This document shows, one piece after another, positions 32,631-63,440 of a stretch of 64,000 nucleotides of DNA. Within the stretch, counting starts at the first letter, position 1. Each line of letters begins with the position of its first letter. The position numbers were made by a program, and so were the translations under genes. This DNA is from Thermanaeromonas sp. C210 (GTDB lineage Bacteria > Bacillota > DSM-521 > Neomoorellales > Neomoorellaceae), in the NCBI RefSeq assembly GCF_013167955.1, contig NZ_BLWF01000003.1:1-64000 (forward strand), written 5' to 3'. Under the pieces are notes generated by a model that saw only the letters and a list, made by a program, of their open reading frames with translations, made no database searches and had not been told where the DNA came from.

Positions 32631-33296
32631 ATGCGTCGGCGGTGGCGCCGGCCCGGAGGACGGGCAAAGGTTTGGGTCCTGGTGTTGCTGGGCGGTCTGG
32701 CCTTACTGGCGGCCCTGGAGTGGCGCCTGAAGCCAGCCATGGAAAGGCTGGCCGTGGCCCAAGCCCAGTGGGTAGCCACCGAAGCCATTCAAGAGGCGGT
32801 TTTGGAGCGGATAGCTGGAGAGGTAAAATATAATGATTTGATCCAACCGGCCAGCGACGAGAGCCGGCAGGTGGTGTTCATGGAGGCCGACGTGTTACGC
32901 ATAAGCAGGCTGCAGGCGGAAGCCCAGCTGGCCATCCAAGAAAAGCTATCGGAGTTGAAGGGCCACAGGTATCCCCTGCCCCTCGGGCAGCTGCTGGGAT
33001 GGCATGTGGTCGCCGCCCTCGGTCCTCCCATCCCCGTGAGCTTTGTGCCTATGGGTACGGTAGCTGTTACCCTGGGGGACAGCTTCGAGGCGGCGGGCAT
33101 CAACCAAACCCGTCACCGAATCTATTTGCAGGTGGAGAGTAATGTGCAGGTAATAGCTCCGTTGCTGGCGGAACAGGTGAGGGTGGAATCCCGGATACCG
33201 GTAGCAGAGGCCATTATTGTAGGGCCGGTTCCCCAAACCTATCTCTCCTTTAATATGGAACCGGGCAAGGGCATACTCCACTCCCCGAGCTTTTAA
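32631..33296 (+). CDS. yunB: Sporulation protein YunB
   Basis: A 221-residue protein with a basic N-terminus and one membrane helix (VWVLVLLGGLALLAALEW), then the YunB pattern: AIQEAVLERI, YNDLI, ADVLRISRLQAEAQLAIQEKL, LGQLLGWHVVAALGPPIPVSFVPMG and RVESRIPVAEAIIVGPVPQTYL. YunB is a mother-cell sporulation protein of the sigma-E regulon in Bacillus; the function is unclear. ATG at 32631 follows GGGGGTGAAAGT; an earlier in-frame start at 32589 is unsupported. Confidence 0.88.
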   Translation: MRRRWRRPGGRAKVWVLVLLGGLALLAALEWRLKPAMERLAVAQAQWVATEAIQEAVLERIAGEVKYNDLIQPASDESRQVVFMEADVLRISRLQAEAQLAIQEKLSELKGHRYPLPLGQLLGWHVVAALGPPIPVSFVPMGTVAVTLGDSFEAAGINQTRHRIYLQVESNVQVIAPLLAEQVRVESRIPVAEAIIVGPVPQTYLSFNMEPGKGILHSPSF

Positions 33297-33301
33297 TTTC
33301 T

Positions 33302-33440
33302 TGCCGGCTTAAGGAGGATTTTTCGTTTCTAGGGCGAATAGTTTTATTTAAGGAGCGGTCAGTGGAGGCCGCGCTGGATGTCTGGCCACGAGGAGGTCAC
33401 CAGCTATCAGGAGTTGGGGGGTTCCTCTGGCCTTTTTGTG
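33302..33440 (+). promoter_or_regulatory. Structured leader with terminator before the DUF3842-cooT-cbi operon
   Basis: A small hairpin GCGG...CCGC (33355-33372) precedes a terminator: GGCCACGAGGA (33384-33394) with TCCTCTGGCC (33423-33432) and tail TTTTTGTG. Only 22 bases separate it from the DUF3842 ATG, leaving no room for a separate promoter, so it probably acts as an attenuator. I could not match it to a known riboswitch. Confidence 0.55.
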
Positions 33441-33462
33441 TAGGGTAGAGGTTCTGGGAGAG

Positions 33463-33900
33463 ATGCCTTTGCGCATTGCGGTAGTGGACGGGCAGGGCGG
33501 TGGCATCGGAAAGCACATCACCAGCAAGATACGCAAGGAGCTACCGCCGGAAGTGGAAATTCTGGCCCTGGGGACCAACGCCATGGCCACGGCGGCTATG
33601 CTCAAGGCCGGGGCCAATGAGGGAGCCACGGGGGAAAATGCCGTGGTACGCAATGCTTCCCGGGTAGACGTGATCGTGGGGTCCCTGGCCATTGTGCTGG
33701 CTGAAAGTATGCTGGGCGAGGTTACCCCCCGTATGGCCGCCAGCATTGCCGCCAGTCCGGCCCTAAAACTGCTGCTACCCCTCAACAGATCCGGTGTGGA
33801 GGTGGTAGGGGTCAAGGAGGAACCCCTACCCCATTTGATAGATGCCCTGGTAGTGCGGCTAAAGGAGTGGGCTATGGAGGCCGGTAAGCTTACGAACTAG
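33463..33900 (+). CDS. DUF3842 family protein
   Basis: A 145-residue protein of unknown function. The start MPLRIAVVDGQGGGIGKHI is a Rossmann-like nucleotide-binding loop, followed by VEILALGTNAMATAAMLKAGANEGATGENAVV and a helical half rich in small residues (VGSLAIVLAESMLGEVTP). I recall this as the DUF3842 family of anaerobic Firmicutes. ATG at 33463 follows CTGGGAG. It heads a run of genes for cobalt or nickel handling (CooT-like, CbiMNQO), which hints at a metal- or corrinoid-related role; this is context only. Confidence 0.75.
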   Translation: MPLRIAVVDGQGGGIGKHITSKIRKELPPEVEILALGTNAMATAAMLKAGANEGATGENAVVRNASRVDVIVGSLAIVLAESMLGEVTPRMAASIAASPALKLLLPLNRSGVEVVGVKEEPLPHLIDALVVRLKEWAMEAGKLTN

Positions 33901-33927
33901 CGGGGCGGACGGGAAGGAGGAAGGGAC

Positions 33928-34119
33928 GTGTGCGAGGCTAACGCCTATCTTTTGAAGGGAGATAAAGAAGAGCTGGTCCTGGAGGGTGTGGACCGAGTCG
34001 TTCCCCAGGAAGAAGGGATTCTTTTAGAAGACATTTTCGGCAAGCGGAAACTCCTGCGGGCGCGCATTAAAGAGATGGCCCTGGTGGAACATAAGATCAT
34101 CCTGGAGGAAACGGAATAA
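33928..34119 (+). CDS. CooT-like small nickel-binding protein
   Basis: A 63-residue protein beginning MCEANAYL, with VLEGVDRVVPQEEGILLEDIFGKRKLLRARIKEMALVEHKIIL. The N-terminal Met-Cys and the short beta-rich layout are those of CooT, a nickel-binding protein tied to carbon monoxide dehydrogenase nickel supply in Rhodospirillum. In acetogens, which depend on nickel CODH/ACS, such proteins are widespread. GTG start after GGAAGGAGGAAGGGAC. Its place directly before CbiMNQO suggests the transporter may supply nickel as well as cobalt. Confidence 0.75.
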   Translation: MCEANAYLLKGDKEELVLEGVDRVVPQEEGILLEDIFGKRKLLRARIKEMALVEHKIILEETE

Positions 34120-34120
34120 C

Positions 34121-34219
34121 GAGAGGGTAAGGGTCCGGAGGACCATAGGACAGCGGATGCCGCGGTGAAGGCGTGGGCCATGGAGGCTCCAAGGGGAGTT
34201 TCCATGGCGTTGTTTTTTT
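34121..34219 (+). promoter_or_regulatory. Attenuator/riboswitch candidate between the cooT-like gene and cbiM
   Basis: Two small hairpins, GGTCC-GGA-GGACC (34132-34144) and GCGG-AT-GCCGC (34153-34163), lead to a very strong terminator: 14-bp arms 34177-34190 and 34195-34208, loop AAGG, tail GTTGTTTTTTT. cbiM starts 20 bases later with its ribosome site filling the space, so transcription of cbiMNQO must read through this hairpin. Compact multi-hairpin layout resembles metal-sensing riboswitches, but no family match could be made. Confidence 0.65.
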
Positions 34220-34238
34220 AGGAAGGGGGGGCATCTCC

Positions 34239-34877
34239 ATGCACATTCCAGACGGCTTTTTGGACGCCAAGACATGGTTGGGAGCCGCAGCCTTAAGCGG
34301 CGCCGCCGTGGGTTACGGCCTTAAAAAAACCGGGGAGGCCCTTCAGGACCGGCAAATCCCCGTCCTGGGGGTCCTGGGGGCTTTCATCTTTGCCGCCCAA
34401 ATGGTCAACTTCCCGGTGGGAGGGGGGACCTCCGGCCACCTCTTAGGTGCCGCTCTGGCTACGGCCCTGCTGGGCCCCTGGAGCGCCACTCTTATTTTGA
34501 CCACTGTACTGATCATCCAGGCTATTTTCTTTGCGGATGGGGGGATTACTGCCCTGGGCGCTAATGTGTTAAATATGGCTGTTATAGCCCCCATGGCAGC
34601 CCATTGTGTTTATAGACTCTTGGGCGGCGTGCGGCCCCTGAGTGTTTTCTTGGGCAGCTGGTGCTCGGTGATAGCTGCGGCAACCGCGACAGCTTTGGAA
34701 CTGGCCCTGGCGGGAGCAGTCCCGTTACCCGCGGTGTTGACGGCTATGGTGGGTTGGCACCTACTCATAGGTATCGGAGAGGGGCTTGTAACCTGCGCGG
34801 TGGTGGCTTTCGTGAGCCGCAGCGGTCTATTGCCGTCCGCAAGTCCCTACGAGAACGGGGAGGGGAAAATAGCGTGA
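34239..34877 (+). CDS. cbiM: Cobalt/nickel ECF transporter substrate-binding subunit CbiM
   Basis: The 212-residue membrane protein begins [13 protein letters not shown], the CbiM/NikM hallmark in which the free N-terminus and His2 bind the metal. [17 protein letters not shown] is the second metal-binding signature. It forms the S-component of an energy-coupling transporter with CbiN, CbiQ and CbiO. ATG at 34239 is fixed by MHIPDG and by GGAAGGGGGGG; the frame runs open upstream to 34173. Overlaps cbiN by four bases (GTGA). Confidence 0.95.
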
Positions 34878-35185
34878 CCTCAACCGACAGGCATCAACCC
34901 AAGGCCAAGGTGATGATCCTCCTTCTCGTCGCCCTGGCGGTGGCGGCCCTGCTATCCCCTTGGGCTTCCTCCAGCCCCGACGGCCTGGAGCGGGTAGCCG
35001 AAGACCTCGGTTTCATGTATTTGGCGGAAGGGGCCCCGTTACTGGAAGGCTGGATGCCGGACTACCTTTTTCCCGGCCTCCCACACGAGGGGCTGGCGAC
35101 CTCCCTCGCGGGGGTGATAGGCACCCTTGTGACCTTGGGTGCTACCTGGGGCCTGGGCAAATTGATTACCCTGCCCAGGCGCTAA
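34874..35185 (+). CDS. cbiN: PDGLE-domain protein, CbiN-like ECF transporter subunit
   Basis: A 103-residue protein with an N-terminal membrane helix ([19 protein letters not shown]), the [13 protein letters not shown] motif that names the PDGLE family, DYLFPGLPH, and a second membrane helix ([18 protein letters not shown]). It fills the CbiN/NikN slot between the CbiM and CbiQ genes and likely loads metal into CbiM. GTG start overlapping the cbiM stop. Confidence 0.88.
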
Positions 35186-35201: not shown

Positions 35202-36029
35202 ATGGTGGACCTCCATGCCGCCCGGGCCGGGACTTTCCCCGGCCGGGGTAAGGGTTTGTTGCCCTTGCAGAGGGTAGATTCCCGGGTGAAACTGGTGGCC
35301 ATGGTCGGATATATTGCCCTGGCTACGGGCCTTACTTCTTGGCTTTCATTGCTGGTGGGGGTCGCCTTTCTGGGCCTGTTAATCGCCTTTTCGGGCTCCG
35401 GGTGGCGCCGGGCAGCGGCCCGCCTTGCCTGGGCGTCGCCCCTGGCCGTAGCTATGCTCTTGTTCCTGCCGGCGGTGACCCCCGGGCACCCCTGGCACCA
35501 AATAAGGATGGGGCCCTGGGAGTTGACCTTGAGCCTCGAGGGTTACGGGCTGGCCGTCTTGCTAGGGTTGCGCATGGTTAACGCTTTATTAGCGGCCGCC
35601 TTGCTTCTGGACACCACCCCTTGGGGTGAACTCATGGGCGCTTTGAGGAGCCTGCGCTTTCCTGCCTTGCTGGTACAATTAATAGACTTTACCCTGCGCT
35701 ATATTTTTGTCACCGGCGACGAGTTAGCCCGCATGAATGTGGCCCTTAAAGCGCGGGGTTTTAAAAGCGGTCGCAGCCTTCTGGACCGGGATACCTTTTA
35801 CACTTTGGGCAGGGTAATCGGGACCCTTTTCATCCGCTCCTGGAAGCGGAGCGAACGTGTTTACCAGGCTATGCTCGCCCGGGGCATGGCCGGAGGCCAT
35901 GTACCGTATACGTCTCCGACACGTCCAGGGGGATGGGATCTGGCCTGGGGGCTGGGTATCGTGGGAATGGGCCTAGGATTGCGGCTGCTGGAACCGGGGG
36001 GATGGATTTGGACTATATTATCCAGATAG
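35202..36029 (+). CDS. cbiQ: ECF transporter transmembrane coupling subunit CbiQ
   Basis: At 275 residues with several membrane helices, it shows the T-component pattern: VDSRVKLVAMVGYI near the start, and the coupling motif ARMNVALKARGF, with a second AMLARGM, that contact the ATPase. It links CbiM/CbiN to CbiO. ATG after TAAAGGAGAGAAAGCACCC, and its end overlaps cbiO by 28 bases. Confidence 0.92.
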   Translation: MVDLHAARAGTFPGRGKGLLPLQRVDSRVKLVAMVGYIALATGLTSWLSLLVGVAFLGLLIAFSGSGWRRAAARLAWASPLAVAMLLFLPAVTPGHPWHQIRMGPWELTLSLEGYGLAVLLGLRMVNALLAAALLLDTTPWGELMGALRSLRFPALLVQLIDFTLRYIFVTGDELARMNVALKARGFKSGRSLLDRDTFYTLGRVIGTLFIRSWKRSERVYQAMLARGMAGGHVPYTSPTRPGGWDLAWGLGIVGMGLGLRLLEPGGWIWTILSR

Positions 36030-36841
36030 AGGATCTGTATTTCCGCTATAAAGACGGTACGGTGGCCCTCCAGGGCCTTTCTTTATTTATTGAGGGGGGT
36101 AAGAAGGTGGCCCTTTTGGGCCCCAATGGAGCAGGAAAGTCCACCCTCCTTTTACACTTGAATGCCATCCATCTGCCCCAGCGCGGCAGGGTACGGGTGG
36201 CGGGCCGGGAAATATCCAGGAGCACGGAACGCTGGGTGCGTTCCCGGGTGGGCATGGTATTCCAAGACCCGGACGATCAGCTCTTTTCTACCACGGTAAA
36301 AGAGGATGTAGCCTTTGGGCCGCGCAACCTGGGCCTTTCGCCTGCTGAAGTGGAAGAGCGGGTGGAAGTGGCCTTGGCAGCCGTAGGCATGCTGGCCTAT
36401 CGGGATCGGGCTCCTTACCACCTCAGCTACGGCCAAAAGAAGCGGGTGGCTATAGCCGGGGTTCTGGCTATGGAACCGGACATTATTGTTATGGACGAAC
36501 CCATGGCCTTTCTCGACCCTGCCGGCCAGGAAGCCGTACGGGCCATCCTCGACCGGCTCCATAAGGAAGGAAAAACCCTCGTTATCGCTACCCACGATGT
36601 CGACTTTGCTGCGTCCTGGGCCGAGGACACAATAATTATGAAAGGGGGACGTGTGCTGGCCCAGGGCGGTCCGGAGATTCTTCTGGAGCCCCAGTTAGTA
36701 CGGGAAGCCGGCTTGCGCCTGCCCCGGGTAGCCGAAGTTTTCCTGGGTTTGTTGCCGGCAAATATGAAGTTGCCCCGGGATGTATCGGACGCCAGAAGGA
36801 TCTTGCGTTCCCTCATTGACAACGGGTGGGGTGCCGGTTAA
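36002..36841 (+). CDS. cbiO: ECF transporter ATPase CbiO
   Basis: A 279-residue ABC ATPase with Walker A LLGPNGAGKSTLL, Q-loop VFQDPDDQLF (the DPDDQ form typical of ECF and CbiO ATPases), signature LSYGQKKRVAIAGVLAM, Walker B DIIVMDEPMAFLDP and H-loop ATHDVDFA. It powers cobalt or nickel uptake. The ATG at 36002 lies inside the end of cbiQ and has GGGGG directly ahead; the longer open frame from 35933 is not conserved. Confidence 0.95.
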   Translation: MDLDYIIQIEDLYFRYKDGTVALQGLSLFIEGGKKVALLGPNGAGKSTLLLHLNAIHLPQRGRVRVAGREISRSTERWVRSRVGMVFQDPDDQLFSTTVKEDVAFGPRNLGLSPAEVEERVEVALAAVGMLAYRDRAPYHLSYGQKKRVAIAGVLAMEPDIIVMDEPMAFLDPAGQEAVRAILDRLHKEGKTLVIATHDVDFAASWAEDTIIMKGGRVLAQGGPEILLEPQLVREAGLRLPRVAEVFLGLLPANMKLPRDVSDARRILRSLIDNGWGAG

Positions 36842-63230: not shown

Positions 63231-63440
63231 GCAAAGAGGATTTTGAAGTGACACCCTGCAATGCCCGTGTTAGGGCCGCATGTTGTGAGCCAACACCAAC
63301 ACTTAGGGAGCCCGGACTCTGGGCGTGGCTTGTAAGCCCCCGAGGAGGGGAAACAAAAAGCGTCCAGGAGGGCACCCACCTGCGGAGAGCGGGTTCATGA
63401 AACTGCGGCACGTCACGGCATTTGTGGGGTTTTGTATTTA
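63231..63440 (+). ncRNA. ssrS: 6S RNA
   Basis: The segment contains the blocks I associate with Clostridia-type 6S RNA: CCCTGCAATGCCCGTGTTAG, GGGCCGCATGTTGTGAGCC, AACACCAACACTTAGGGAGC, GGGCGTGGCTTGTAAGCCC, AAACAAAAAGCGTCCAGGAG, and a 3' half GGTTCATGAAACTGCGGCA followed by CGTCACGGCATTTGTGGGG. The 5' CAATGCC and 3' GGCATTTG can form the closing stem, and a TTTT run follows. 6S RNA mimics an open promoter and binds housekeeping RNA polymerase in stationary phase. Its place between aspS and tcdA matches the 6S-1 locus of B. subtilis. Ends are approximate. Confidence 0.78.

Follow-up and report, generated by a model that had tools for sequence, protein, structure and literature searches.

What governs transcription into cbiM of Thermanaeromonas sp. 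C210, where a terminator-like hairpin fills the gap behind cooT? The locus lies in a stretch of 64,000 nucleotides (the window), in which yunB, DUF3842, cooT, cbiM, a gene that we take to be cbiN-like from its position and PDG.ERVAED motif, cbiQ, cbiO and cysK follow one another in this order, all on the + strand (Table 1). As cooT, cbiM, cbiQ and cbiO (Pfam) are co-directional, a transcript starting upstream must cross the terminator hairpin, and the first-pass annotation was right to see an obligatory attenuator in a metal-uptake operon. The sequence comparisons presented here suggest that this terminator belongs to an undescribed, widespread RNA switch. A second copy of the element stands before the DUF3842-cooT operon (leader A; 33383-33437), and this leader and that of cbiM (leader B) are probably attenuators of one new class, read by an autoregulated DUF3842-CooT pair and controlled by nickel or cobalt.

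Table 1. Parts of the locus, with positions in the window
Feature	Position	Strand	Basis and remarks
Leader A, upstream hairpin P1	33355..33372	+	Folding; GCGGTC-AGTGGA-GGCCGC, loop ending in GGA
Leader A, putative antiterminator hairpin P2	33383..33399	+	Folding; TGGCC-ACGAGGA-GGTCA, variant 7-nt loop
Leader A, predicted terminator	33384..33437	+	Stem 33384-33432, T5 33433-33437; 5' arm common with P2; R2 match 33381-33439
DUF3842 (PF12953), candidate co-regulator	33463..33900	+	Pfam E 1.4e-56; start codon inferred; co-occurrence
cooT (PF10133), Ni-binding protein family, candidate regulator/sensor	33928..34119	+	Pfam E 4.9e-26; relatives 6FAN, 5N76
Leader B, upstream hairpin P1	34132..34144	+	Folding; GGTCC-GGA-GGACC, degenerate GGA triloop
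Leader B, putative antiterminator hairpin P2	34175..34189	+	Folding, covariation tests; GGGCC-ATGGA-GGCTC, ANGRA pentaloop
Leader B, predicted intrinsic terminator	34177..34219	+	Stem 34177-34208, T7 34213-34219; 5' arm common with P2
cbiM (PF01891), Co/Ni ECF transporter S component, controlled gene	34239..34877	+	Pfam
cbiN-like small membrane protein (presumed)	34873..35185	+	Position and motif; without Pfam match
cbiQ (PF02361)	35202..36029	+	Pfam
cbiO ATPase	36002..36841	+	Start inferred

Leader B displays the G+C-rich stem and T run of an intrinsic terminator, as which it is predicted: 14 pairs, of which 8 are G-C, enclose a loop of 4 and are followed by GTTG and the seven T. The 14-bp terminator that had been described between cooT, which ends at 34119, and cbiM is present, and the ribosome site said to fill the space before cbiM is there also, purine-rich and in 19 bases (34220-34238) rather than 20. 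The hairpin is the top of a terminator scan over 10 kb, a region with 12 terminator-like sites against a shuffled mean of 11.6, and the 149-nt leader (34112-34260) has a folding energy of -55.5 kcal/mol, where shuffled sequences average -46.3 (sd 3.3; z -2.8). The observation of an attenuator before cbiM is confirmed. Two short hairpins reported ahead of the terminator were also found, at 34132-34144 and, as GCGG-ATG-CCGC, at 34153-34163. The alternative fold that had been proposed, in which CCAT pairs with ATGG of the terminator arm, did not hold up; CCAT occurs at 34143-34146 as described, but it shares bases with the 3' arm of the first of these hairpins, and the pairing is without a conserved counterpart in the leaders of relatives. 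What the relatives do conserve, in competition with the terminator, is a local hairpin (P2) within the terminator's own 5' arm.

Among the cbiM leaders of the family-level group, 14 of 15 carry a small P2-type hairpin in the terminator 5' arm, closed by CC/GG and bearing the loop AUGGA, ACGGA, AUGAA or AUGUA, with L005 the sole leader without one. Several of these leaders (L003, L006-L010) contain a second upstream hairpin with a like loop on a different stem. The leaders of DUF3842-cooT, taken from the CooT loci of 18 family genomes, have a P2 counterpart in 15 of 15 cases, and P1 of leader A has one in L031 and L041, with the loop AGCGGA. Upstream of this P1, at about 33310-33350 of the window, lies a GGAWTTT...GGCGAATA-like block that recurs in L046, L047, L049 and L053, and blocks of a similar kind, GCGAATA, stand ahead of some further leaders that have the element; whether part of a promoter or a further binding site, this block is unexplained.

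Covariation supports both helices. In an alignment of 35 elements (A2), preselected for hairpin and terminator so that its pair counts lean that way, P2 is 100% paired with 14 double-changed cells and the terminator 93.5% paired with 34, each lying above all shuffles in pairing and covariation score. A stronger test was provided by alignment A4, composed of matches from 54 loci outside the training of a covariance model (R1) that was built from the A2 elements with the terminator pairs only; its 81 rows, less 4 antisense duplicates and the identical rows, leave 69 distinct ones. The outer two P2 pairs, which R1 does not model, are formed in 67/68 and 68/68 rows (54.6 and 61.0 when shuffled) and are of Watson-Crick type in 61 against 35.6 and 47 against 33.0. 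The 69 loops, of the ANGRA type with few exceptions, read ACGAA (29), AUGAA (17), ACGGA (12), AUGGA (8), GCGAA (2) and AUGUA (1), with G3 and A5 invariant and A1 kept in 67, an invariance somewhat overstated by the preference of R1 scoring for the consensus in an alignment that leans to the model's loop length. That G3 and A5 never vary and A1 rarely does, while letters 2 and 4 vary along with the terminator's 3' arm, suggests that the P2 loop itself is recognised.

Loop letters conserved beyond pairing, and the covariation of P2 and terminator on a common arm, also bear on two simpler explanations, namely a plain constitutive terminator whose sole effect is to reduce cbiM expression, and a DNA operator for a repressor such as NikR. 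The perfect inverted repeat with its T tract would suit them, and NikR boxes are placed before nikMQO in delta-proteobacteria in the accessible part of one study (PMC545781); however, the T tract invariably lies on the 3' side, unrelated metal genes have the element in front of them, and the element is unlike the reported box, GTGTTAC-N13/14-GTAACAC, which leaves these explanations highly improbable. Since NikR boxes are put forward there for the nickel uptake of some delta-proteobacteria, a NikR layer and the attenuator may coexist.

The stand-alone terminator hairpin reaches -24.9 kcal/mol against -6.1 for P2, and the most favourable structure of leader B that is made to keep P2 lies 14.6 kcal/mol above the free fold. 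Being far less stable, P2 would need help to win, so that the default would be termination. Of 43 leaders, 17 possess a GRA-loop hairpin of 5 bp or more farther upstream (loop often AUGAA or AGGAA), against 2.5 when shuffled, and the loop at the terminator apex includes GRA (AGAA, UGAA, UGGA or AGGA) in 21 of 37 apex hairpins; P1 and the apical hairpin, P3, are each absent or degenerate in many leaders, including those of the window (GGA triloop). A reader acting as a dimer or oligomer would suit the two or three like hairpins of a leader, and the element is best described, as predicted from these features, as a putative two-state terminator/antiterminator leader with repeated loop-recognition hairpins.

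The element might be an ANTAR-type antiterminator or a CsrA site whose reader is encoded elsewhere in the genome. The logic of ANTAR targets is alike, with tandem hairpins, which part of the leaders here display, a P2 overlapping the terminator and a conserved loop A and G (available part of PMC3369931), and the GRA/GGA loops recall CsrA sites. In that source, however, ANTAR hairpins have hexanucleotide loops with A1 and G4, against P2 pentaloops with G3 and A5 in 69 of 69 matches here, and the CsrA family (PF02599) occurs in 14 of the 18 family genomes but is missing from G017 (one contig) and from G001, each with strong R1 matches. CsrA was rejected as the reader on this ground, and a known system of either kind is very unlikely to account for the element.

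A scan of 80 CooT loci from named genomes for a hairpin with an overlapping terminator placed the element in Moorella, Thermincola, Sporomusa and many Deltaproteobacteria, where it adjoins either cooT or a cbiM close by; in 51 of the 80 loci the gene directly ahead of cooT is DUF3842. Most training loci of R1 had been reached by way of CooT or of closely related cbiM genes. A second covariance model, R2, was built from 32 elements that all lie outside the window's family: its best two matches in the 64-kb window were 33381-33439 (E 7.8e-4) and 34173-34216 (E 1.6e-3), the next standing at 0.18, and over 30 family cbiM loci it matched most short-type cbiM leaders and gave only one chance-level match (L030, E 0.31) among the other cbiM paralogues. 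R1 may score on both strands of palindromic terminators. A near-palindromic extra element downstream of cbiM in L018 (2670-2727; G017:C1) gives scores on both strands and possibly serves divergent genes.

The first-pass annotation had proposed a covariance search and an Rfam scan, of which the former recovered related elements before metal-uptake genes in two phyla and the latter matched no known class. At the gathering score Rfam gave only 6S RNA in the window (RF00013, 99.1 bits, 63250-63434), at E<=10 over 33290-34300 only two chance matches to human lncRNAs, and at the element in 41 further loci no match. Cobalamin riboswitches were present in 4 of 11 cbiM loci scanned with Rfam, all of the other-paralogue type, and the second cbiM of the window's genome has one upstream (L002 941-1135; G000:C3, upstream of 363692). 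The two cbiM paralogues of this genome would accordingly be controlled differently, and corrinoid sensing by leader B is unlikely, as it is the other paralogue that stands behind the cobalamin riboswitch.

Genome searches located the element before NicO, cbiM/nikM, larC, NikA-type ABC, FecCD/TonB, cobN, FmdE and DUF4198 genes. Thirty first downstream proteins were classified with Pfam (a set that includes the training locus L204, and L170 and L176, both similar to a training locus), and 18 of them belong to metal or solute transport families or are members of the regulon: NicO, SBP_bac_5 (3), BPD_transp_1, Peripla_BP_2, CbiM (2), FecCD (2), TonB receptors (2), CobN, FmdE, DUF4198 (2), DUF364 and DUF3842. 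The other 12 comprise methyltransferases (3), Phenol_MetA_deg (2), DUF6802 (1) and six proteins without a Pfam match. In the window's own genome the element precedes an FmdE and a NikA-type protein (L131, G000:C2:313221-313276), in Moorella relatives ZnuA-type and CobN genes, and in G196 larC. Two genomes (L184, L185) hold a single DUF3842-FmdE-CooT operon; that of L184 (1019-2926) is preceded by the element and encodes a CooT of 274 aa fused to a DUF4198 domain. The CooT of L185 is similarly long (279 aa). Genomes may carry many copies, R1 matching 27 times in Syntrophaceticus (G441) and 17 times in Thermacetogenium (G443). The elements in two clusters of G081 (L186, L187) stand mostly before peptide/nickel-type ABC transporter operons, within some 40 kb.

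The distribution of the element follows that of a gene pair. Among 398 genomes of the window's own phylum, CooT is found in 120, DUF3842 in 180 and an R1 match at E<=1e-5 in 84; the matches fall in 74 of 113 genomes with both genes, 6 of 67 with DUF3842 only, 0 of 7 with CooT only and 4 of 211 with neither. The corresponding counts in a second phylum (217 genomes; the phylum to which G420, source of a Deltaproteobacteria locus, belongs), where no genome has DUF3842 without CooT, are 58/74 for both genes, 2/47 for CooT only and 2/96 for neither, or 66/74, 7/47 and 13/96 at E<=1e-3; all are raw genome counts that ignore phylogeny, with the like behaviour of two phyla as the main guard. The pair, rather than CooT alone, predicts the element, and since the element occurs almost only where DUF3842 and cooT co-occur, the two are its likely regulators. 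CooT as sole reader was rejected on the rarity of the element in CooT-only genomes of both phyla, and DUF3842 as sole reader on the DUF3842-only genomes of the own phylum. A whole-genome search of CooT-bearing genomes gave a match at 1e-3 in 40 of 45, or in 25 of 30 once 15 training-source genomes are set aside; the strict filters of this search and of the two phylum searches lose weak matches.

Exceptions occur in both directions. Both genes are present with no match at 1e-5 in 39/113 genomes of the own phylum and 16/74 of the second, and ten own-phylum genomes have a match at this threshold without CooT, four of them also without DUF3842 (G019, G038, G045, G360). In G019 (L179) several strong elements precede nikABCDE-type, FmdE and cobN genes, real nickel loci in a genome where neither CooT nor DUF3842 was found, owing either to an assembly gap or to another reader. 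The complete family genomes without CooT, G002 and G015, yield only weak matches (0.010 and 2.6e-4), the best inside coding genes, and no convincing element was seen in the G015 genome. In this genome (L142), cysK directly follows yunB, DUF3842-cooT being missing from the spot that it holds in relatives. In a genus without CooT (L180, L181; G018, G283), the element lies after the DUF3842 gene and before an ECF S component.

The four genomes with matches but neither gene would be explained by a riboswitch, in which the tandem hairpins bind nickel, cobalt or a small molecule themselves, without a protein, and the leader position, two-state fold and metal regulon agree with one. Such a riboswitch is nevertheless unlikely. 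Pentaloop hairpins (4-8 bp) whose invariant core is small and whose number and spacing are modular look less like an aptamer than like repeated binding sites of a protein, none of the metal or cobalamin riboswitches of Rfam is matched, and in two phyla the distribution of the element follows that of a gene pair. For this last reason, a protein-read antiterminator fits better than the stand-alone, compact metal- or corrinoid-sensing element that had been envisaged at first.

The window's CooT scores 91.2 bits against the PF10133 cut-off of 27 and has the N-terminal Met-Cys and the length of 60-65 aa of this family, which was formerly named as a predicted RNA-binding protein. Cys2 is invariant (10/10), and the protein is a close relative of the solved CooT of C. 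hydrogenoformans (6FAN) and R. rubrum (5N76). The latter is a 7.1-kDa dimer that binds one Ni per dimer via Cys2 with a Kd of 9 nM, and cooT mutants need added nickel for growth on CO; the accessible part of this report describes CooT as a CODH nickel accessory protein and calls its function unclear (PMC6006190), and that of another treats it as a maturation protein only (PMC13056359). In fold searches only CooT entries stand out, with the RimM C-terminal and ATP-synthase epsilon as weak matches, CsrA not listed, though a likeness of CooT to it may still exist, and no close match to a known RNA-binding protein. DUF3842 has no sequence relative in the PDB, and its AF2 model, of high confidence, is a predicted Rossmann-like domain with middling matches only (best Z 9.1, many ties), appearing to resemble a generic Rossmann fold rather than any known RNA binder. 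No paper mentioning DUF3842 by name was found in the literature searched, which lacks most subscription papers.

The mechanism proposed for the DUF3842-CooT pair builds on mutually exclusive helices, loop conservation, a metal regulon, an autoregulatory position and the co-occurrence of the pair, all observed in this analysis. By default, RNA polymerase would make the long terminator and then stop, in leader B at the run of seven T. A regulator on the ANGRA loop of P2, and usually on a further hairpin with a GRA loop (upstream as P1, or at the apex of the terminator as P3), would hold P2, so that the terminator could not form and the metal-uptake genes would be transcribed. This regulator would be the pair, autoregulated through leader A, with CooT as the dimeric Ni-binding protein that reports nickel (or cobalt) status. 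At low nickel or cobalt, the pair would hold P2, the terminator would fail, and the uptake genes and the pair itself would be made; with enough metal, Ni on CooT would release the RNA and transcription would stop. As the regulon consists of uptake genes, it is most likely that the metal-free form antiterminates and that metal releases it. RNA binding by DUF3842 or CooT, which of the two makes contact, the ligand and the sign of control are what we infer.

The odds lean slightly towards a broader view, in which metal-sensing regulators of RNA antitermination form a new class, with DUF3842 and CooT as its first members, and CooT is mainly the nickel sensor of an RNA-based uptake regulon in at least two phyla, rather than a CODH chaperone. 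If true, the regulator of nickel and cobalt uptake would be known by name for acetogens, syntrophs and sulfate reducers, CooT and DUF3842 would each have a function open to testing, and, alongside riboswitches and repressors of the NikR type, metal homeostasis would include an antitermination switch read by proteins. Searches of the literature on cbiM antitermination, on nickel riboswitches, NikR or regulatory RNA, and on nickel antitermination, with most subscription papers outside their scope, returned nothing on the element.

Among known systems, the targets of the ANTAR proteins EutV, NasR and AmiR are alike in the conserved loop residues of their small hairpins, which stand in tandem there and in part of the leaders here, in the overlap of the second hairpin with the terminator 5' arm, and in forming one regulon over several leaders, with a protein dimer that reads two hairpins (as described in the accessible part of PMC3369931). 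The element differs from these in its ANGRA pentaloop (or NGRA tetraloop) in place of the A1/G4 hexaloop, in its associated candidate proteins, DUF3842 and CooT, which are unrelated, and in a regulon of metal uptake. CsrA/RsmA hairpins share the GGA in their loops and, as the candidate reader, a very small, beta-rich dimeric protein, but the element would act on a terminator rather than on the ribosome site. The cobalamin and NiCo (czcD) riboswitches of Rfam likewise act in cis on cobalt and nickel transport genes, the czcD class being the only nickel/cobalt-responsive riboswitch named in the available part of a review of metal-related regulatory RNAs (PMC9294342); neither is matched in the window's leaders, and those for cobalamin lie near other cbiM paralogues. 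Within the CooT family, of which the window's cooT is a clear member, the protein is a CODH nickel accessory protein in print and, here, part of a candidate regulatory pair.
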